DNA of 64,000 nt from Pricia antarctica (GTDB taxonomy: Bacteria > Bacteroidota > Bacteroidia > Flavobacteriales > Flavobacteriaceae), in assembly GCF_900101815.1 (NCBI RefSeq), contig NZ_FNAO01000009.1:62001-126000 (forward strand), given 5' to 3'. Made by a program: the position numbers and the translations under genes. The notes beneath the pieces were generated by a model. That model did not search any database, was not told the DNA's origin, and was given only the letters and a program-made list of their open reading frames with translations. Positions 54,003-63,956 of this stretch are shown here, piece after piece; position 1 is the first letter of the stretch, and each line of letters opens with the position of its first letter.

Positions 54003-54500
54003 TTAGGAGGGGTCCACCATAAACAAAGGCTGATCAAACTCTACGGGCGAGGAATCCTCCACCAATATTTTCACGATTTTTCCAGAAACCTCGGATTCGA
54101 TATCGTTGAAAAGTTTCATCGCTTCGATCACGCAGAGCACATCGCCCTTTTTGATAGCGGAGCCCACTTCAACAAACGTATCTTTATCAGGGGACGGTTT
54201 TCGATAAAAAGTACCAATAATGGGCGACTTGATCGTAATGTACTTTGAATCGTCCTCCTTTTTATTCTCTTTGGATGCTTCGGAAGTAGCCGCTTCCCCG
54301 GCTTGTGCAGGTGGTGATGACGGTTGTGTCATCTGGGGCTGCCCCATAGGAATTTGCTGAATGTACGTGGGCTCGTGATGATCAGATTCCGCAGGGCCTG
54401 TCTTAATTGTAATCTTCAGATCGTCGGTTTCTAATTTTACCTCTCTGGCCCCTGACTTCGCAACGAATTTTATCAGGCTTTGAATTTCTTTTATATCCAT
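54003..54500 (-). CDS. accB: Biotin carboxyl carrier protein
   Basis: 165 residues: an N-terminal domain (1-35), a Pro/Gln/Ser-rich link (about 45-85) and a biotinyl domain (88-165) with the modified K129 in VIEAMKLFNDIE. It shuttles carboxylated biotin in acetyl-CoA carboxylase. Located 46 nt after fabH. Confidence 0.96.
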   Translation of the reverse strand: MDIKEIQSLIKFVAKSGAREVKLETDDLKITIKTGPAESDHHEPTYIQQIPMGQPQMTQPSSPPAQAGEAATSEASKENKKEDDSKYITIKSPIIGTFYRKPSPDKDTFVEVGSAIKKGDVLCVIEAMKLFNDIESEVSGKIVKILVEDSSPVEFDQPLFMVDPS

Positions 54501-54546
54501 GGAATTTGAATTTTATAGTGTTCGATCGGTTTTGTTCTGTTCTATT

Positions 54547-55542
54547 TTAATTATACGCCCATGTCAAGTATATCGACCCCCAGGTAAAGCCTCCGCCGAA
54601 AGCTGCAAACACAAGGTTGTCTCCTTTTTTAAGCTGTTTCTCATAATCGTACAACAATAGGGGCAGGGTTCCCGATGTGGTGTTCCCGTAGCGTTGAATG
54701 TTCATCATCACTTTCGAACTATCAATGCCCATTCGGCTGGCCGTCGCATCGATAATCCGCCTATTGGCCTGGTGGGGCACCAACCAAGCTACGTCTTTAT
54801 GATCTAGATCGTTCTGCCGCATAATTCGCGCCGCCACGTCGGCCATATTCGAAACGGCGAACTTAAATACCGTTTTCCCTTCTTGATAAATGAAATGTTT
54901 TCTGTTTTTGACTGTTTCTTCGGTCGCCGGCATTAAAGAACCACCGGCATCCATGCCCAAAAATTTTCTCCCGTTGCCATCTGCCCGAAGATATTCGTCT
55001 TGCAGACCAAGGCCCTCATCGTTCGGTTCGAAAAGCACCGCCCCGGCTCCGTCACCAAAAATAATGCATGTGGTACGGTCGGTATAGTCGATGATGGACG
55101 ACATTTTATCCGCACCGATCAGCAGCACTTTTTTATATCTGCCGGACTGAATATAGCTCGCCGCGGTCGACATCCCAAAAAGAAAACTGGAACAGGCGGC
55201 CAATAGGTCATAGGCAAAAGCATTTTTTGCCCCTATTTCGGATGCTACGAAAGCAGCTGTCGAAGCTACCATACTGTCCGGTGTAGCGGTAGCTACGATA
55301 ACCAAGTCGATTTCCCCAGGATTTATATTTTTTCTTCGGATAAGGTCTTTGGCAGCCTTTATGGCCAAGAATGAAGTACCTTCGCCCTCTTCAGGTTTTA
55401 AAATGCGCCTTTCCTTGATTCCGGTTCGGGTGACAATCCACTCATCGTTGGTATCGACCATACCTTCTAGCATTTGATTGGTCAGCACAAATTTTGGCAC
55501 GTAACCCCCTACAGCCGTAATCGCTGCCGTTAATCTACCCAT
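54547..55542 (-). CDS. fabH: 3-oxoacyl-ACP synthase III
   Basis: Starts fatty acid chains by condensing acyl-CoA with malonyl-ACP. The 331-residue product has C117 in YDLLAACSSFLFG, His in WLVPHQANRRI and Asn in QRYGNTTSGTLP, plus the NDEWIVTRTGIKERR start region. The preceding rpmF ends in a terminator 220 nt upstream, so fabH probably has its own promoter. Confidence 0.96.
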   Translation of the reverse strand: MGRLTAAITAVGGYVPKFVLTNQMLEGMVDTNDEWIVTRTGIKERRILKPEEGEGTSFLAIKAAKDLIRRKNINPGEIDLVIVATATPDSMVASTAAFVASEIGAKNAFAYDLLAACSSFLFGMSTAASYIQSGRYKKVLLIGADKMSSIIDYTDRTTCIIFGDGAGAVLFEPNDEGLGLQDEYLRADGNGRKFLGMDAGGSLMPATEETVKNRKHFIYQEGKTVFKFAVSNMADVAARIMRQNDLDHKDVAWLVPHQANRRIIDATASRMGIDSSKVMMNIQRYGNTTSGTLPLLLYDYEKQLKKGDNLVFAAFGGGFTWGSIYLTWAYN

Positions 55543-55761
55543 CTTACGTCGGTTTGATCTAAAATCCTTTGAAAATCCCTTAAAACTCGTGAAAATTAAT
55601 CATTTTCCATGAAAAATATTCCAAAAACCAAGTGTTTTTAAAATATAAGCCCACCCATTGATTCTAAAACCACAAAATACAACATCACCTTAGTATATCC
55701 ATAGATTATTGTAGCTCCGATAAGGCGTGCATTGCAACAAGAAATTTCCATCCATAAAAAA

Positions 55762-55784
55762 ACTCCCGCTTACATCACGGGAGT
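55762..55784 (-). terminator. Terminator after rpmF
   Basis: Perfect 7-bp stem ACTCCCG / CGGGAGT with a 9-nt loop. Read on the minus strand a run of seven T follows the second arm. It separates DUF177-rpmF from fabH. Confidence 0.85.
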
Positions 55785-55816
55785 CCTTGAATCTTTAAGG
55801 GTTTGGTCTATATGAC

Positions 55817-56014
55817 CTAAGCTTCGACCTCTTCGGTTTTATCGATTAAAACTTGACCTTTGTAATACAGTTTGCCCTCGTACCAGTGCGCCCTATGGAA
55901 CAGGTGCATTTCACCAGTCGTCGGATCGGTCGCCAACGTAGGGGCTACCGCTTTGTAGTGGGTTCTTCTCTTGTCTCTTCGGGTTCTCGAAATTTTTCTC
56001 TTGGGATGTGCCAT
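55817..56014 (-). CDS. rpmF: 50S ribosomal protein L32
   Basis: 65 residues with the L32 start [22 protein letters not shown]. The downstream half ([19 protein letters not shown]) lacks the zinc-binding Cys of some L32 types, as is common in Bacteroidota. It follows the DUF177 gene by 6 nt. Confidence 0.97.
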
Positions 56015-56020
56015 CGTATT

Positions 56021-56554
56021 TTATTTATCCGTTAACAGTTTTTTTAATTCGTCCCATCGGGGATCGTTTTCGTTTTTATTTTCTTTTATTTGCTTGGGCT
56101 GCAATTCTTCCAGTTTTTTCAAAGCTTCCGATTGCAAACTGCCATCAAGCACCCCGGGATGTATTCGTTTCAGTGGAACGGCTAAAACCAACATTTCATA
56201 TACATACTGGGCGATATTGACCTGATGTGACCCGTGGGGAACAATCAAAATATCATCGTCATCGTCATTGTATTCGTCTCCGAACTTTACCACCAGTTCC
56301 AACTCGGCCGAAATCGGTTGGTCATAAGGTTCACTCGTCAAATCGCAATCTACATTTACCGTTCCCGTAGCTTCCATCTCGAATTCGAGCATGGTACTCA
56401 TTTTTTTTAAGGCGACATTTAGAACGATATTGGCCCCATTGAACTCATCATACCCAAAAGACTCAAAGAACGCGTTATCTACCGTATATTGAAAATTGTG
56501 TTTTCCTTGCTTTAATCCCGAGAAAGGAATGCTAAACTCCTTTTGCACCATCAT
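56021..56554 (-). CDS. DUF177 (YceD-like) protein
   Basis: 177 residues. The DUF177 core is visible: MEATGTVNVDCDLTSEPYDQPISAELELVVKFGDEY, then an acidic stretch, IAQYVYEMLVLAVPLKRIHPG, and DPRWDELKKLL at the end. Family members sit before rpmF in most bacteria and are linked to 23S rRNA metabolism. A strong promoter lies upstream, and rpmF follows after 6 nt. Confidence 0.9.
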   Translation of the reverse strand: MMVQKEFSIPFSGLKQGKHNFQYTVDNAFFESFGYDEFNGANIVLNVALKKMSTMLEFEMEATGTVNVDCDLTSEPYDQPISAELELVVKFGDEYNDDDDDILIVPHGSHQVNIAQYVYEMLVLAVPLKRIHPGVLDGSLQSEALKKLEELQPKQIKENKNENDPRWDELKKLLTDK

Positions 56555-56898
56555 TTCAACACTAATTTTAAAAACCTATATGCCTATTATGCTCCTGCTG
56601 AGTACAAAGGCGGGCGCAAAGATACTATTATTTTCATTAATACCAAACCCTTACACATGGTCTTAGCGACCGCTTTAAAGTCTTACAATGCTTGCGGCAA
56701 ATGCCGAAACCTATGTACCTTTAATCTATACAATTGTCGTTCCGTGAAAAAGCAAAAAACAATTTATCGGGAATCTTATCGCCAAGTTTTGAAAAAAATG
56801 TTTTACGGCTACGCGCAGGTCGAAGTCCGGTTTGAAATGATAGGTAGGTCCGGCAAATTTTGATACATTAGCTAAAACGACAAAGAAAAATAGTAAAA
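56555..56898. other. Divergent intergenic region upstream of DUF177 and the GAF gene
   Basis: 344 nt. It carries the DUF177-rpmF promoter (56617-56647, minus). A 106-codon plus-strand frame here looks like chance: it overlaps the promoter and has no recognisable motif. I see no other feature. Confidence 0.5.
56617..56647 (-). promoter_or_regulatory. Promoter of the DUF177-rpmF operon
   Basis: On the minus strand TTTG (56644-56647), a 19-nt spacer and TATCTTTG (56617-56624) match the Bacteroidota consensus almost exactly, 62 nt before the start codon. Confidence 0.7.
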
Positions 56899-57363
56899 AT
56901 GGATATCTTAAAACGTGAAAGCATTAGTTCCTTATTACAACGGACTCCCGTCGATTGGCAAAAAGTTCTTTCTGACTGTATTTCTTGTTTTGGTTGTTCG
57001 ACCGGAACCCTGCATTTTTTAGTAGCGAACACCGATATATTGAAATTGCAGGCCCAAATCGGTATTCCACAATTCTTACTTCCCAAAGTATCGCAGATTC
57101 CCATAGGAAAGGGCATGGCGGGTATCGCGGCTGAGAGGCGAGAACCGGTAGAAATGTGCAATCTGCAGACGGATACTTCGGGAGTAGCCCGTCCGGCAGC
57201 GAAAGAAACTAAAGTAGAAGGATCGATTGCGGTGCCTATGATGCTCGATGGCAATTTGTACGGTACGTTAGGTATTGCGAAACCGGTGCCTTATAATTTT
57301 ACCGAAAACGAACGGAACGAACTTGTAAAAATCGGGGAGGAAATCGCTAAGCATTTAGCTTAA
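56899..57363 (+). CDS. Stand-alone GAF domain protein
   Basis: 154 residues forming one GAF domain: FGCSTGTLHFLVANTDILKLQAQIGIPQFLLPKVSQIPIGKGMAGIAAERREPVEMCNL...KVEGSIAVPMMLDGNLYGTLGIAKPVPYNFTENERNEL. Small-molecule sensing or redox (free methionine sulfoxide reductase-like) roles are possible; the Cys residues present do not settle this. No output domain is attached. Confidence 0.85.
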   Translation: MDILKRESISSLLQRTPVDWQKVLSDCISCFGCSTGTLHFLVANTDILKLQAQIGIPQFLLPKVSQIPIGKGMAGIAAERREPVEMCNLQTDTSGVARPAAKETKVEGSIAVPMMLDGNLYGTLGIAKPVPYNFTENERNELVKIGEEIAKHLA

Positions 57364-57370
57364 AGCGCTA

Positions 57371-57440
57371 TTCGGCGTTCGGCGTTCGGCGTTCGGCGTT
57401 CGGCGTTCGGCGTTCAGCGTTCAGCGTTCAGCGTTCAGCG
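57371..57440. repeat. 7-bp tandem repeat, 10 copies
   Basis: Six units of TTCGGCG followed by four of TTCAGCG, 70 nt in all, filling the gap between the converging GAF and pdxA genes. The block is perfect apart from the single G-to-A switch between halves. Confidence 0.95.
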
Positions 57441-57454
57441 TAAAAAAAAGGAAA

Positions 57455-57473
57455 TTCTTGTAAACCACAAGAA
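57455..57473 (-). terminator. Terminator of pdxA
   Basis: Stem TTCTTGT / ACAAGAA with a 5-nt loop. Read on the minus strand it leads into TTTCC and a run of T, 20 nt after the pdxA stop. Confidence 0.6.
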
Positions 57474-57492
57474 AATCCCACAGAACTTTTAA

Positions 57493-58539
57493 CTATCGCC
57501 GTACCCTTTGACGCTGTAGCGGGTTCTCCGTCAGTTCTAGATATTCCTTGCGGTTCCTGAAAATTGAAATGGCAGTAAATACCGCCTCCTTGAAGGAACT
57601 AGGGTCGGCCTTGCCTTGCCCGGCGATTTCGTAGGCAGTGCCATGGTCAGGTGAGGTGCGTATCTTTGATAGACCCGCGGTAAAGTTCACGCCCCTACCA
57701 AAGGATAGGGTTTTAAACGGAATCAAGCCTTGGTCATGATATGCAGCCAAGATAGCATCGAAGTTTTTGTAATTATCCGATCCAAAAAAGCTATCGGCGG
57801 AATAGGGGCCGAATACCAGATGGCCGGCATCCGACATTTCCTTGATTATGGGTTTGAGTATCTCCTCGTCTTCCTTACCGATTACACCATTGTCCCCGCT
57901 ATGCGGATTGATACCCAAAAGAGCCACTTTGGGCGCACGAATGCCAAAATCCATCCGCAATGATTTTTCGATGGTCCTGACCTTACTTCGGATCAAGATC
58001 GGGTTAATGGCCGAAGACACGTCCTTTACGGCTACGTGATCGGTAAGCAAACCCACTTTTAATCCCTCGGTGACCATGAACATCAAGCTTTCGCCTTCAA
58101 GCTCCTGCGTAAGAAAATCGGTGTGCCCGGGAAATTTAAAGTCCTTCGTTTGAATGTTGTTCTTGTTGATGGGCGCGGTGACCAAAACATCGATGTCTCC
58201 GTTTTTCAAAGCGTCTACGGCCGCAAGTAAAGATTTCAAGGCGTATTTCCCCCCTTCTTCGGTGGCCTCGCCGAACTTGATATCGGGAATTTCCTTCCAT
58301 ACGTTGACCACATTGACTTTGCCGTCAACGGCCATTGAAGCTTCCTGAACGCCGTTGTATTTAATATCGATATTCAGTTCTTTTTGTTGAAAGGAAATGG
58401 TCTTGCTAGAGGCAAAAAGTATCGGGGTACAGAAATCCAACATCCGGGAATCCTCAAACGTCTTGAGCACGACCTCGCATCCAATACCGTTCAAATCACC
58501 TATGGAAATACCCAATTTTATTTTACCGTCTTCCTGCAT
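57493..58539 (-). CDS. pdxA: 4-hydroxythreonine-4-phosphate dehydrogenase
   Basis: An enzyme of pyridoxal phosphate synthesis. The 348-residue product has KLGISIGDLNGIGCEVVLK, VTAPINKNNIQTKDFKFPGHTDFL (metal-binding His region), LTDHVAVKDV, NPHSGDNGVIGKED and AYHDQGLIPFK, all family hallmarks. ATG 58539 is chosen because the upstream in-frame extension to 58695 overlaps the divergent ribE gene and shows no conserved sequence. Confidence 0.94.
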   Translation of the reverse strand: MQEDGKIKLGISIGDLNGIGCEVVLKTFEDSRMLDFCTPILFASSKTISFQQKELNIDIKYNGVQEASMAVDGKVNVVNVWKEIPDIKFGEATEEGGKYALKSLLAAVDALKNGDIDVLVTAPINKNNIQTKDFKFPGHTDFLTQELEGESLMFMVTEGLKVGLLTDHVAVKDVSSAINPILIRSKVRTIEKSLRMDFGIRAPKVALLGINPHSGDNGVIGKEDEEILKPIIKEMSDAGHLVFGPYSADSFFGSDNYKNFDAILAAYHDQGLIPFKTLSFGRGVNFTAGLSKIRTSPDHGTAYEIAGQGKADPSSFKEAVFTAISIFRNRKEYLELTENPLQRQRVRR

Positions 58540-58626
58540 GATATTCTTTACCTTTGTAAGGGTGAATTGATTTATACTTTTTTTTGCGATTGCACTAGCT
58601 ACAAAACTAGTTAATTTAGACGGAAT

Positions 58627-59217
58627 ATGTTTACGGGAATCATCGAAACCTTGGGGGAAATTAAGCGATTGGAGCGCGATGGGGAGAACCTTCACGTCAC
58701 CATAAAATCACCTATGGCAGAAGACCTGAAAATCGACCAGAGCGTATCCCATAACGGGGTCTGTCTAACGGTCGTAGCTCTAGACGGACAGACCTACACC
58801 GTCACCGCCATAGCCGAAACCCTTCAAAAAACGAACTTGAATCGGCTAAAGGTGGGCGAAAAGGTCAATTTAGAACGTGCGATGATATTGGGAAGCCGTT
58901 TTGATGGCCATATCGTTCAGGGCCATGTTGATCAAACCGGTGTTTGTACCGCTCGAAAAGAAGTGAACGGCAGCTGGGTATTTACCTTCGAATATGATTC
59001 TGAAATGGGCAACCCTACCATTGAAAAGGGTTCGATTACTATCGACGGCACTAGCCTTACCGTAGTGGATTCCGGTAGCAATACCTTCAGTGTGGCCATT
59101 ATTCCATACACCTACGAACATACAAGGTTTAACGCTTATGAAGTCGGCAGCGTTGTAAATTTGGAGTTCGATGTAATCGGAAAGTATGTGGCGAAGTTGA
59201 TGAAACAGAATATTTAA
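58627..59217 (+). CDS. ribE: Riboflavin synthase, alpha chain
   Basis: Forms riboflavin from two 6,7-dimethyl-8-ribityllumazine molecules. The 196-residue product has two lumazine-binding repeats: MFTGIIETLGEIKRL...VSHNGVCLTVV...NLERAM at the start, and GHIVQGHVDQTGVCTAR...GSITIDGTSLTVV...VNLEFDVIGKYV in the second half. No FMN riboswitch-like element was seen upstream. Confidence 0.96.
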   Translation: MFTGIIETLGEIKRLERDGENLHVTIKSPMAEDLKIDQSVSHNGVCLTVVALDGQTYTVTAIAETLQKTNLNRLKVGEKVNLERAMILGSRFDGHIVQGHVDQTGVCTARKEVNGSWVFTFEYDSEMGNPTIEKGSITIDGTSLTVVDSGSNTFSVAIIPYTYEHTRFNAYEVGSVVNLEFDVIGKYVAKLMKQNI

Positions 59218-59296: not shown

Positions 59297-60493
59297 TCAT
59301 TCCTCAAAAAAGCTGATTGATGATCCGATCCAGGTTTCGTCGACCTGATGCGAAACATTAATCATTTCACCTTTGCTCATCCGGGTCAGATTGATTACTG
59401 GTTTCAATCGATTTTCTTCGGTACTCCAGACGTAAAGCATCCGTAGCTCCACCTTTGAATTCTTCTCATTTTTGGTTTTCACCACAGCGGCATATTTCAC
59501 TTTTTGTTGAAGGATATAGTTCTGTTTTTCTTCTATCGCTTCAATAGTTTTTTGATCGGGATGTAAATTTACACCTTGGCCCGCAAAGGAAAACAAGGGT
59601 TTCAATACATAATCCCCTAGATTTAAATTTTTTGGATAGTCGTTCAAATAATAGGATGCCGGTATGTTCTTGTGCTTTAACAAAGGCATAATGCACTTTG
59701 AAATCACGAAAAACCAATCGGGGTGGGTAACCCACCGCACGTCAAGGTCGTCGCTAAGATTGAAAGCGACATCAAGGTTTTCGATACGTTGCAGTTCGTC
59801 AAAGATAACGCGATTATAAATCCTGTGGATGGGGATTTTTCGACCGTCTTTTTCATAGAAGAGTTTTTTTCCTTGCTTAATGACCTTGGTCATACAGACC
59901 ACTTCGATACCCAAGGCCTTTTTGGTGGCCCAGAAATCGATGCGCGTCTTTTGCTTTTCGGGGAAAAGCTCCAAAAGGATGACGTTCTCCGGTTTTTCAT
60001 TTCCAAGGATTACTTCCTTGATTTCCTTGAGATAGCTTTCTTCGTTCAATCCGCTGAAATAATAATTTAGGCCCTCTTTAGGAAGGTTCGGATAGCACTT
60101 GCGATACGCCTCTCCAAGAAAAGGCTGGTAAAAGAACAAAGTCGGAAAGGCCTGCAGTTCGATAAGCTGGGGCGTAATACCCCCCTTGCCGTCATCACAA
60201 AGTCCGAAATCGATGGCCAAAAAATCAGGATTGCCCATCGGAAGCGGGGATTGTAATTCTTTTGGAATAAAGGTATCCCGTATTTTTTGGAAGTCGATTT
60301 CCCCAAGCTGTTCTATTATGGCATCACAAGCGGAAAATACATCCTTTTTTAGGTTTACATCGATAAAAACCGGTGTTTCAGAAATTCTGAAGGCACTGGG
60401 TTCCGAATAGGTGTTTTCAATATGTTTGAGTAGATCTTCGTAATATTCCGGTTTGAATTCCGCATTGAACCTATCCCTGATTTCTGATATCAT
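59297..60493 (-). CDS. Probable ATP-grasp-type ligase of unknown substrate
   Basis: 398 residues, soluble. LAIDFGLCDDGKGGITPQLIELQAFPTLF (92-120) and DYVLKPLFSFAGQGVNLH (294-311, K298) look like the metal-binding and ATP-lysine halves of an ATP-grasp fold in permuted order, reminiscent of glutathionylspermidine synthase-like ligases. I do not recognise a named family. Its ATG overlaps the amidotransferase stop (ATGA), so it is translationally coupled to that gene. It is the last gene of the ligase cluster, and context points to forming a peptide or amide bond. Confidence 0.65.
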   Translation of the reverse strand: MISEIRDRFNAEFKPEYYEDLLKHIENTYSEPSAFRISETPVFIDVNLKKDVFSACDAIIEQLGEIDFQKIRDTFIPKELQSPLPMGNPDFLAIDFGLCDDGKGGITPQLIELQAFPTLFFYQPFLGEAYRKCYPNLPKEGLNYYFSGLNEESYLKEIKEVILGNEKPENVILLELFPEKQKTRIDFWATKKALGIEVVCMTKVIKQGKKLFYEKDGRKIPIHRIYNRVIFDELQRIENLDVAFNLSDDLDVRWVTHPDWFFVISKCIMPLLKHKNIPASYYLNDYPKNLNLGDYVLKPLFSFAGQGVNLHPDQKTIEAIEEKQNYILQQKVKYAAVVKTKNEKNSKVELRMLYVWSTEENRLKPVINLTRMSKGEMINVSHQVDETWIGSSISFFEE

Positions 60494-61326
60494 ACTACTT
60501 GTAATTTTTCGATGTCTATGGCTTCCGCTGCCAACCGTAAGAAATTGGGGATAATCGTATGGTTGGTTTTCATTATCTTTTCATCGTCTACCAATTGTTC
60601 CAGCATATTGAGATATTTCCGTTTGCCGTATTTTTTAATGATGGCATTGCGCTTGTCCTCTTTCTTAAAGTGGCGCAACATCCCTTCGGAATCCGCTTCC
60701 GGATGAAACTGCACTCCAAAAATCTCCCTGCTGTAACGAATGGCCATAACTGCCCTCTCTAAAGGCACATGCGCGCGCACCTTCTCCCTACATAAGACTT
60801 TGCCCTCTAAGGTATCAAGTTTCCATTCAGAAGGACCGACAACTTGATAATCCCTTGAGTCAACGGCGTAAAATGGATTGGCCAAGCCTTCGAGCAATAT
60901 TTCATGCTCCCCGCTGTTGGTCTTAAATATAGGATAAATTCCAAAAGAGGTAGAGCGGCGCTTAGTGACCTTCGCCAGATCCCAATGCACGCAGGCCAAT
61001 TGAAACGAATGGCAAATCAAAAAAAGGTGTTTTTTATCCGGTTTCGACAGGTTATGCAAGAGCAGGGCGTCAAGAAAACCGAAATATTTAAACTCCCAAT
61101 CTTGCCCTGATATTAATGGTGATCCGGGGCCGCCGGAGGATAGATAGATGTCAAAATCATCCAATAGGGGAATCTCTTCATTGACCCTTACCTCGAAAAC
61201 TTCGTAGTGACCCTCCCTACCTTCTTGCGCCAAAAACTCGCCCGCTAGCATTTTCAGACAGCGCATACCTTCATTGGGCTCTCCGGCATTCATATCGAGA
61301 ATTGCTATTCTGTATTTGTTGATCAT
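60490..61326 (-). CDS. Class I glutamine amidotransferase-like protein
   Basis: 278 residues with the triad of class I amidotransferases: C105 in LFLICHSFQLAC, H208 and E210 in IFGVQFHPEADSEG. The oxyanion GGPGSP motif is at about 65-70. The elbow reads CHSFQ where typical amidotransferases have CxGxQ, so it may be an amidotransferase, a gamma-glutamyl peptidase or another hydrolase. The 60 C-terminal residues are basic and not part of the domain. It overlaps the next gene by 4 nt; a palindromic element separates it from the GCS2 gene upstream. Confidence 0.8.
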   Translation of the reverse strand: MINKYRIAILDMNAGEPNEGMRCLKMLAGEFLAQEGREGHYEVFEVRVNEEIPLLDDFDIYLSSGGPGSPLISGQDWEFKYFGFLDALLLHNLSKPDKKHLFLICHSFQLACVHWDLAKVTKRRSTSFGIYPIFKTNSGEHEILLEGLANPFYAVDSRDYQVVGPSEWKLDTLEGKVLCREKVRAHVPLERAVMAIRYSREIFGVQFHPEADSEGMLRHFKKEDKRNAIIKKYGKRKYLNMLEQLVDDEKIMKTNHTIIPNFLRLAAEAIDIEKLQVV

Positions 61327-61340
61327 GTTTTTTTCTAATC

Positions 61341-61501
61341 GTCATTGCGAGCTTTTCAGGCCTTTGGCCTCAAAAGCGTGGCAATCTGTTGAACATCGGC
61401 GAATGGCGTTATGAAACTACTTGCCCACTTCAACGGATTGCCACGCCAATTTGGGCTACACCCTCATTGGCTCGCAATTGTTCAGTTAAATAACGCCATT
61501 C
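61341..61501. repeat. Complex inverted-repeat element inside the ligase operon
   Basis: Three nested complementary pairs. TTGCGAGC (61345-61352) pairs with GCTCGCAA (61470-61477). A 17-nt arm at 61376-61392 pairs with 61430-61446 (16 of 17; core CGTGGCAATC / GATTGCCACG). GAATGGCGTTAT (61401-61412) pairs with ATAACGCCATTC (61490-61501). Sequences of this CATTGCGAGC...GTGGCAATC type are dispersed palindromic elements in many bacteria. There is no gene inside. Confidence 0.75.
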
Positions 61502-61534
61502 ATGCTTTAATAGTGTGTGTTCTCGATACGATGT

Positions 61535-62632
61535 CTAAAGCCCCTTCTTTGTCTGCTGCACGATATACTTTGACACATCACACAGGTCGCCAGTTTGTTC
61601 GAACACCTTAAGTTGGCGGTCGGCACCTGACCCCTGCTCGAGCATTTGATACACGTAATTCACTTCGCTTCGGCATCCGAGGTCGTCGACGACATCATCG
61701 ATGAATTCCAACAACTCGTTCATCAACTGATTAAAGTGAACTTCCTCTTCCTTGCCGAAATCGATTAGTTTGGCCTCTACGCCCCATCTTGCGGCACGCC
61801 ATTTGTTCTCGTTCAGGAGCAGGCGGCGGTAATTTTTGAAAGTCTGGTTCTTTTTGTGCATTTTATACAACTTAGCCACGATACACTGCATCAGGGCCGC
61901 GATGCAGGTCACCTCATCGACCGTCATTACGACATCACAGATCCGGAACTCGATCGTTGGATAGAACGGATGCAAACGAATGTCCCACCATATTTTTTTG
62001 GCGTTGTCAAGGCAATTGGTACGCACCAGAATATCAACGAACTTGTCATATTCTCCAACGCTGGAAAAAAAAGGCGGAATTCCGGTTCTGGGAAATTTAT
62101 CGAACACCTTGCTCCGAAATGATTTGAACCCGGTTTCGCGCCCCTCCCAAAACGGACTGTTTGTTGAAAGGGCATAGAGATGCGGCAAAAAATATCGCGC
62201 CACATTCAGTATCTCAAGGCCCTCTTCACGACTGGGGATGGCCACATGCACGTGCATGCCAAAAATGAGGTTGCCCCGTGCCACGTCTTTCATTTCCTCG
62301 ACTATTTCGTCGTATCGGGGTTTCGAAGTAATCAGCTGTTCGTGCCAAAGCGAACTGGGGTGCGTACCGGAAGCGGCCACCTTGAGACCTTCGGCATCGG
62401 CCAGTTTGATGATCTGTTGCCGAAGATAGGAAACCTCGTCCCGCACCTGATTTATGTTCTCGCATACATTGGTACCCATTTCAATCATCGACTGGTGCAT
62501 TTCTTCCTTGATTCGTTCTTGCAGCAGTACCTTGCCCCCATCGATGATTTTCGACATCTGTGACCGAAGCTTGAACGTATCGCTGTCGAGAACCTGGAAT
62601 TCTTCTTCTATACCCAGTGTGAATTTATGCAT
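61535..62632 (-). CDS. Carboxylate-amine ligase, GCS2/YbdK family
   Basis: 365 residues of the glutamate-cysteine ligase 2 family. The start HKFTLGIEEEFQVLD supplies the metal-binding Glu residues (GIEEEFQ, 7-13). GMHVHVAIPS, SVGEYDKFV, WWDIRLHPFYPTIEFRICDVVMTVDEV and LLNENKWRAARWGVEAKLIDF follow in the family order. Members join an amino acid carboxylate to an amine using ATP; YbdK has weak gamma-glutamylcysteine activity. The real substrate is unknown. It lies 27 nt after the ATP-grasp/H1 gene. Confidence 0.9.
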   Translation of the reverse strand: MHKFTLGIEEEFQVLDSDTFKLRSQMSKIIDGGKVLLQERIKEEMHQSMIEMGTNVCENINQVRDEVSYLRQQIIKLADAEGLKVAASGTHPSSLWHEQLITSKPRYDEIVEEMKDVARGNLIFGMHVHVAIPSREEGLEILNVARYFLPHLYALSTNSPFWEGRETGFKSFRSKVFDKFPRTGIPPFFSSVGEYDKFVDILVRTNCLDNAKKIWWDIRLHPFYPTIEFRICDVVMTVDEVTCIAALMQCIVAKLYKMHKKNQTFKNYRRLLLNENKWRAARWGVEAKLIDFGKEEEVHFNQLMNELLEFIDDVVDDLGCRSEVNYVYQMLEQGSGADRQLKVFEQTGDLCDVSKYIVQQTKKGL

Positions 62633-62659
62633 GTTGATGGTTTTGTTTGATCAGATTGC

Positions 62660-63925
62660 CTATTTGGTCTTTTTGGGAGCCGACTTAGCCGGGGATTTTT
62701 TAGTTACACCAGTTTTTGGTTTGACAGGGGTTTTGCCTTTGGCAGGGGCTTTAGCTTTCACCGGAGCCTTTTTATTAGCCTCCACCTTCGCTGGGGCCGG
62801 AACTTTCGATTTTGTTTGGGCTTTTGACTTGGCGGGCCCTTTTTTGGGCGGTGCCCCTTTTTTATCGGATTCTGTTTTTTTCTTGGCGGCGGCTGCTTTT
62901 TTCTTTGCTTCCGTAGCTTTTTTAACCTCTTCCGCAGTTTTTAGATTGACCTTGCCTCTTTTTGGGGCTTCGGGTGCAATCGAATCCTTAACGAAACCGC
63001 CCCAAGAGGTATTGTTCTGTTTCGCCTTGTGGGCATTTGCCTTTTCAACGGCATACTTGGCGGAATGCTCGACAATCCAATCAAAATTTTCTTGGCCTAC
63101 GGAATGTAAATCCGCATCTGGCGCGGGATTACAAAAATCGATGGCGTAGGGTATTCCGTCCCTTACCGCAAATTCTACGGTGTTAAAATCATAGCCAAGG
63201 GCCTTATTAAGTTTTAAGGTGTAGTTGTGTATCGTCTTCAATAATTTATCACGTTCGTCACCCGTGGCCTTGATTTCACTCACATACCGCTCGTGAAAAG
63301 GTTTTCTAGGGTCGTAGGGCATAATATGCACATATTTTTGACCGAGACAATACACCCGGAAATAGTCGTCAAAAACGATTTCTTCCTGTAACATCATAAC
63401 CAACTGTCCGGTTTCGGCATGGCTGGCGAAGAGTGCATCTGCATTTTCTACCTTATATACATCTTTCCATCCGCCTCCATCAAAAGGTTTCATGTAAGCG
63501 GGGAAGCCGATGTAATTAAATATATAATCCCAGTCTAACGGGCCCACTAGATTTCTGAACGATTTCTCACTCGTATCATTGGGCCTTGTGTTCGAGGGCA
63601 ATAATACCGTTTTTGGCACGGGAACGCCCAATTCCATTGCCAGACAATTGTTAAAAAATTTCTCGTCGGCACTGAACCAAAACGGGTTGTTGATGACCGC
63701 CGTACCCATTAGGGCCGCATTTTTGACATACGATCGATAAAAGGGAACACCTTGCGACATACGGTCGAGTATGACATGATACCCATAATCGATACCCTGT
63801 TGCACCTTATCTATCTGAACGGGTTCGGCAACTACTTTACCTTTGCCCAATTCGTTCACTTTGTCTATAAAGGCCCAGGGAAACGTGTCTTCCTGACCGA
63901 AAATAATACCTACTTTTTTTGCCAT
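62660..63925 (-). CDS. ATP-grasp ligase with a lysine-rich histone H1-like tail
   Basis: 421 residues. Residues 1-316 are an ATP-grasp (RimK/glutathione synthetase-like) enzyme: GIIFGQEDTFPWAFIDKVNELG, the ATP-binding K146 in AYMKPFDGGGWKDV, MLQEEIVFDDYFRVYCLG, and metal ligands in TVEFAVRDGIPYAIDFCNPAPDAD (E251, D263, N266). Residues about 320-421 are almost only Lys, Ala, Pro, Thr and Ser in PAKxK-type repeats, like the tails of histone H1 and bacterial H1-like proteins. This fusion is unusual. It is the first gene of the cluster seen here, and the operon may extend past the right edge. ATG 63925 (MAKKVGIIF) is preferred over 63949. Confidence 0.82.
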   Translation of the reverse strand: MAKKVGIIFGQEDTFPWAFIDKVNELGKGKVVAEPVQIDKVQQGIDYGYHVILDRMSQGVPFYRSYVKNAALMGTAVINNPFWFSADEKFFNNCLAMELGVPVPKTVLLPSNTRPNDTSEKSFRNLVGPLDWDYIFNYIGFPAYMKPFDGGGWKDVYKVENADALFASHAETGQLVMMLQEEIVFDDYFRVYCLGQKYVHIMPYDPRKPFHERYVSEIKATGDERDKLLKTIHNYTLKLNKALGYDFNTVEFAVRDGIPYAIDFCNPAPDADLHSVGQENFDWIVEHSAKYAVEKANAHKAKQNNTSWGGFVKDSIAPEAPKRGKVNLKTAEEVKKATEAKKKAAAAKKKTESDKKGAPPKKGPAKSKAQTKSKVPAPAKVEANKKAPVKAKAPAKGKTPVKPKTGVTKKSPAKSAPKKTK

Positions 63926-63956
63926 AATAATTTTTGTTTTAATTGTCATTCCCGCA

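Follow-up and report, generated by a model that had tools for sequence, protein, structure and literature searches.

A conserved Bacteroidota gene cluster with three carboxylate-amine ligases and an amidotransferase-like protein, found in Pricia antarctica, as a candidate small-amide pathway

The closest described counterparts of the gene cluster considered here are the glutathione pathway, in which a GshA-type ligase acts together with the ATP-grasp ligase GshB, and the enzymes of the glutathionylspermidine synthetase (GspS) type, namely GspS itself, the YgiC/YjfC peptide-spermidine ligases (PF03738) and the eukaryotic-type glutathione synthetase (GSS). The cluster lies at the right edge of a 64,000-nucleotide stretch of the Pricia antarctica genome (the window; bases 62001-126000 of the 212-kb contig NZ_FNAO01000009.1), and the contig was therefore followed beyond that edge. 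It encodes an ATP-grasp ligase (ATPg), a carboxylate-amine ligase (GCS2), a class I amidotransferase-like protein (GAT) and a second, permuted ATP-grasp ligase (cp), and is preceded by an esterase gene (Est236).

Similarly to the glutathione pathway, the cluster combines one GCS2-fold ligase with ATP-grasp ligases, but its GCS2 belongs to the YbdK/PRK13515 subfamily and not to cyanobacterial GshA (TIGR02048, 61.7 bits, under the cut-off of 249), and a third ligase, an amidotransferase and esterases are added. The cp protein shares the GSS/GspS-type fold but is only 14-15% identical to the PF03738 enzymes, stays below the Pfam cut-off, by an alignment made by eye seems to have Gln for Asn at a metal ligand and to lack the Arg of the RMDF motif, is not fused to an amidase domain and is encoded within an operon of several ligases. 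Amide pathways independent of non-ribosomal peptide synthetases, such as that of E-64 with its ATP-grasp ligase Cp1B, differ in that E-64 is fungal and has an oxygenase-made warhead and a different partner ligase. The co-operonic arrangement of peptide ligases of different folds is a known theme according to PMC4431377, which cites Iyer et al. 2009 (Mol Biosyst 5:1636), and in this general respect the cluster resembles the amidoligase operons of the latter work. No description of this gene set was found in the literature searched (titles and abstract openings, Iyer et al. 2009 not included).

The four consecutive minus-strand open reading frames (ORFs) claimed in the initial annotation are borne out by the ORF coordinates, together with the gaps of 27 nt (ATPg-GCS2) and 208 nt (GCS2-GAT) and the 4-nt overlap of GAT and cp. 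The ATPg start that it placed at 63925 is an internal ATG, that of MAKKVGIIFG, and is also plausible, while the first ATG gives 63949. The extent of four genes turned out to be too narrow: Est236 and, beyond it, a divergent gene of a second PF00756 esterase (284 aa) adjoin the cluster, and the clusters of other families also include an M17 peptidase and one more ATP-grasp protein. The search for the same gene order in other Bacteroidota, proposed in the annotation, gave the order Est236-ATPg-GCS2-GAT-cp on one strand in 58 of the 66 loci that have enough sequence on both sides, these being drawn from the 80 top-ranking among at least 590 relatives. Because five genes keep the same order in so many relatives, their clustering exceeds chance. 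The eight exceptions are L036 with ATPg split into two ORFs, L065 without a cp ORF, L080 and L090 without a GCS2 ORF, and four Runella-type loci (L097, L101, L105, and L106) in which GAT and cp are not nearby. In L080, a piece resembling the start of GCS2 sits in the gap, so this gene may be broken or misread; L098, where no ATPg ORF was called, is outside the 66. Among 149 sampled genomes of the host family, 14 matched ATPg; two of these (E about 1e-3) were set aside as unrelated, and all five genes occur together in the 11 ATPg-bearing genomes other than our own. The carrier genera include Chryseobacterium, Maribacter, and Dyadobacter.

The association of the genes was also followed in a set of 247 Bacteroidota genomes, searched with the four protein alignments at E<=1e-20. 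ATPg was matched in 86 genomes, cp in 73, GAT in 59, and GCS2 in 79. All four occur in 41 genomes, all but GAT in 24, all but cp in five, all but GCS2 in four, and all but ATPg in one; the remaining combinations are ATPg with GAT (8), cp with GCS2 (2), ATPg with cp (1), GCS2 alone (6), ATPg alone (3), and none (152). The ligases thus co-occur strongly, although Fisher values are nominal, the genomes being related. In the 70 genomes with both ATPg and cp, the two genes are within 12 kb in 42, far apart on one contig in four, and on different contigs in 24, where contig breaks may conceal some linkage. Ten of the 28 unlinked genomes were read around both genes, and in none of these ten is the partner nearby, which indicates that linkage alone does not account for the co-occurrence. 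Scattering of the genes in relatives, which the initial annotation regarded as damaging to the pathway idea, is therefore seen only in part: linkage is not universal, but co-occurrence is strong. Likewise, the composition of ligases plus amidotransferase is kept together in many Bacteroidota, but GCS2 and GAT are each absent from some lineages.

GCS2 was correctly recognized as a carboxylate-amine ligase, since it passes the cut-offs of both PF04107 (E 2.6e-64, 217.8 bits over a cut-off of 21) and the NCBIfam equivalog NF010039/PRK13515 (533 bits over 371) and matches E. coli YbdK (1r8g) at E 3e-48. The assignment of GAT holds as well, with 26.4 bits against PF00117 (cut-off 22.8) and the residues C105, H208, and E210 conserved without exception in the 24 sequences aligned. 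This is a hydrolase-competent catalytic set, and judging by sequence GAT may either use ammonia of glutamine or hydrolyse gamma-glutamyl bonds. Plant gamma-glutamyl peptidase offers an analogy. In the window genome, neither ATPg nor cp passes any Pfam family cut-off. The structure prediction for cp, whose failure to show an ATP-grasp protein would, according to the initial annotation, have weakened the pathway idea, supports the guess of a permuted ATP-grasp: the predicted fold is of the GSS/GspS type across the whole chain, and residues 1 to about 227 of RimK/LysX match residues 165-398 of the model, which fits the permutation. PF03738 is matched at E<=0.01 by 15 of the 31 aligned cp members (best 9.6e-6) and over its cut-off in none of 31 genomes. 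Alignment by eye shows D95 and E112 of cp as invariant; we take the corresponding Asp and Glu, together with an Asn, to be metal ligands of GspS, and the Arg of RMDF to be catalytic.

ATPg has a predicted ATP-grasp fold of the Ddl/RimK type. The H1-like tail noticed in the initial annotation is real in the window protein, where the last 110 residues, following a WGxF motif, contain 32% K, 19% A, and 12% P, and where residues 364-429 mostly have a predicted local distance difference test (pLDDT) score below 50. It is not a general feature: of the 86 ATPg ORFs in which the tail could be measured, 46 have one of at most 25 residues, and the other 40 have a longer one rich in Lys, Ala and Pro. Among the 80 highest-ranking of at least 590 relatives, the named locus closest to ATPg is that of a Pricia antarctica metagenome-assembled genome (MAG), with 90% identity. 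No match of ATPg to plasmids was found at E<=1e-5. In Maribacter antarcticus (L036:10025-11131), the start of GCS2 is also off frame beside the split ATPg, and three loci (L200, L201, and L202 of genomes G155, G233, and G303) carry a divergent ATPg with the other three families unmatched.

Parts of the cluster are exchanged in certain lineages. Thirteen genomes have GAT but no cp match, and in five of the seven that were read a CP_ATPgrasp_2-like protein of 451-474 aa is encoded beside GAT (L187, L188, L190, L191, and L193); in G176 and G278 it was not seen, in part perhaps through failed ORF calling. One of three such proteins tested passes the CP_ATPgrasp_2 cut-off, and hhalign of the 450-aa family against cp gave a probability of 3.4, so we describe this protein as taking the place of cp in position rather than through homology. 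Among the GAT-lacking genomes with three linked ligases, G201 and G239 encode an M29-like peptidase between GCS2 and cp (62% mutual identity over 335 residues), and G149 and G154 have nothing there. In 41 of 91 loci, and in 35 with the same orientation, there are nearby genes for an M17-type peptidase and for an ATP-grasp protein of 400 aa that resembles D-Ala ligases (assigned from one scanned example each). Such exchanges point to a genuine hydrolase role that unrelated enzymes can fill, the M29 cases being few.

Results of our analysis make it rather probable that the cluster specifies a ribosome-independent small-amide pathway, working by analogy to the route from glutamate through glutathione to glutathionylspermidine. 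The pathway idea of the initial annotation is to this extent supported, as three carboxylate-amine ligases and a GAT with retained catalytic residues are kept together. The proposal draws on predicted folds, conserved catalytic residues, gene order and co-occurrence, from which we infer every substrate, the sequence of reactions and the end product. GCS2 would couple a carboxylate resembling glutamate with an amine or amino acid, ATPg would add a further amino acid, and cp, whose nearest relative is the peptide-spermidine ligase YgiC, would add a terminal amino acid or amine. GAT, or an M29/M17-type peptidase in some lineages, could remove the gamma-glutamyl or N-terminal residue from an intermediate or recycle the product, and the serine esterases might process an ester or thioester form. 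By the analogy with YgiC alone, the end group may be a polyamine.

Several observations weigh against this proposal. The structure of ATPg is predicted with intermediate confidence and has low Foldseek TM-scores (0.24-0.47), and cp scores 20.9 bits against PF03738 (GSP_synth) with a cut-off of 29.3, has Gln114 at the position of the GspS metal-binding Asn and does not keep the RMDF Arg (both aligned by eye). Of the 59 genomes with GAT, 12 lack GCS2, and of the 65 with ATPg, cp, and GCS2, 24 lack GAT, which implies that a strict scheme of capping by GCS2 and uncapping by GAT is not obligatory. M29 had to be rejected as a general stand-in for GAT, as it occupies the GAT slot in only two of the four linked GAT-lacking genomes and occurs in 78 of the 247 genomes anyway. 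The distribution of NspC, a polyamine enzyme, does not follow that of cp: its cut-off is passed in 4 of the 73 genomes with cp and in 6 of the 174 without it. Of the 247 genomes, 10 exceed the cut-off and 116 have some match at E<=0.001, for the most part well under the cut-off, so polyamine supply through NspC was discarded as showing no association, and our own genome has no NspC match. Finally, no transporter or regulator is among the neighbour families that recur in most loci.

The main rival to the small-amide pathway is protein modification, in which a RimK/R2K-like ATPg and partner ligases would attach an amino-acid tag to a protein and a peptidase or amidotransferase would remove it, the Lys-rich tail of ATPg itself perhaps being the tagged protein. 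ATPg is indeed RimK-like, though far below the family cut-off (TIGR00768, 22.5 bits versus 143.4), and weak R2K_2 matches occur in 6 of 27 members. R2K families have been proposed as protein-peptide ligases in PMC4431377, and ligase/hydrolase pairs such as RimK/RimB are documented in PMC12239564. However, the tail that would favour this explanation in 40 ATPg ORFs is short in 46, no widespread substrate protein or small ORF accompanies the cluster, three different ligases with esterases are more than a tag writer needs, and small peptides are the substrates of the nearest structural relatives of cp. We therefore consider protein tagging unlikely.

PuuA and PuuD handle putrescine by gamma-glutamylation and release. 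An analogous use or detoxification of amines or xenobiotics, which would be gamma-glutamylated or amidated, processed and released by a GAT-like hydrolase, agrees with the catalytic set of GAT, with the linked PF00756 esterases and with a class III aminotransferase family (assigned by Pfam on one example) that directly follows cp in 17 loci, in 16 of them in the same orientation. Yet the latter is limited mostly to Dyadobacter and relatives (e.g., L079:8510-9697), three consecutive ligases build rather than degrade, and neither a dehydrogenase nor a permease is common to most loci, which makes this explanation more doubtful still. A graspetide-type ribosomally synthesized and post-translationally modified peptide (RiPP) or an Anbu/alpha-E peptide-tagging system is highly improbable, even though graspetide ligases are among the Foldseek matches of ATPg and some relatives use the CP_ATPgrasp_2-like protein, since no widespread precursor-like ORF is present in the inner gaps and the single alpha-E match of the genome is on another contig (C44, with the cluster on C27). 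A broad search for a RiPP precursor (1390 small ORFs, 262 gaps or flanks, 76 loci) gave 12 largest families that are mostly pieces or overlaps of neighbouring ATP-grasp, esterase, and aminotransferase genes and include one 25-aa minus-strand ORF in 19 loci, the source of which was not traced. A strict search (91 inner gaps >75 nt, 57 loci) gave nine families, four in three loci and the rest in two; all four are within one gap of L055, L056, and L073.

Table 1. Features of the cluster and its upstream neighbour (positions in the window)
Feature	Position	Strand	Remarks
ATPg, ATP-grasp ligase	62660..63949	-	429 aa from first ATG; 421 aa if start at 63925; Ddl/RimK-type fold; no Pfam match
H1-like Lys/Ala/Pro-rich disordered C-terminal tail of ATPg	62663..62992	-	composition and low pLDDT
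GCS2/YbdK-family carboxylate-amine ligase	61535..62632	-	365 aa; PF04107, NF010039/PRK13515, YbdK 1r8g
Intergenic hairpin region	61327..61534	-	208 nt; folding vs. shuffles
GAT, class I amidotransferase-like protein	60490..61326	-	278 aa; PF00117; C105/H208/E210 invariant
cp, GSS/GspS-type (permuted) ATP-grasp ligase	59297..60493	-	398 aa; predicted fold
Est236, PF00756 esterase	64076-64786 (L002:7077-7787), outside the window	same as cluster	236 aa; directly upstream of ATPg

The gap between GCS2 and GAT, described in the initial annotation as filled by a palindromic repeat, contains a real hairpin (-74.9 kcal/mol, z -6.8, equalled by 0 of 200 shuffles); the whole gap used as a single query found no second match in the genome at E<=0.001, which gives no support to a dispersed repeat. 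In the Pricia antarctica MAG (L027), this gap has the same length, and in other relatives its length differs. In the Epilithonimonas-type loci L055, L056, and L073, it is interrupted by two inserted genes (for proteins of 78 and 97 aa in L055) that look like a toxin-antitoxin pair. Downstream of the cluster, genes at 54003-59217 of the window, which we take to encode riboflavin synthase, PdxA-like and DUF177-like proteins, FabH, and a biotin carboxyl carrier, recur beside it in 12-14 loci, so its location looks stable in the host family. The alpha-E gene of the same genome (G000 contig C44:291560-292498, L218; E 7e-74) may mark a separate amidoligase system.

The small-amide pathway could, in its boldest form, provide a Bacteroidota-wide, glutathione-like cofactor or metabolite new to science. 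It would be a gamma-glutamyl peptide to which cp adds an amine or amino acid as the end group, recycled by the peptidases and esterases, with the Lys-rich tail of ATPg, where present, as an in-cis carrier; we regard this as quite unlikely in such a complete form. ATPg is present in about a third of the sampled Bacteroidota genomes (86 of 247), and a product this widely shared could be a cofactor, a storage compound or a stress compound.
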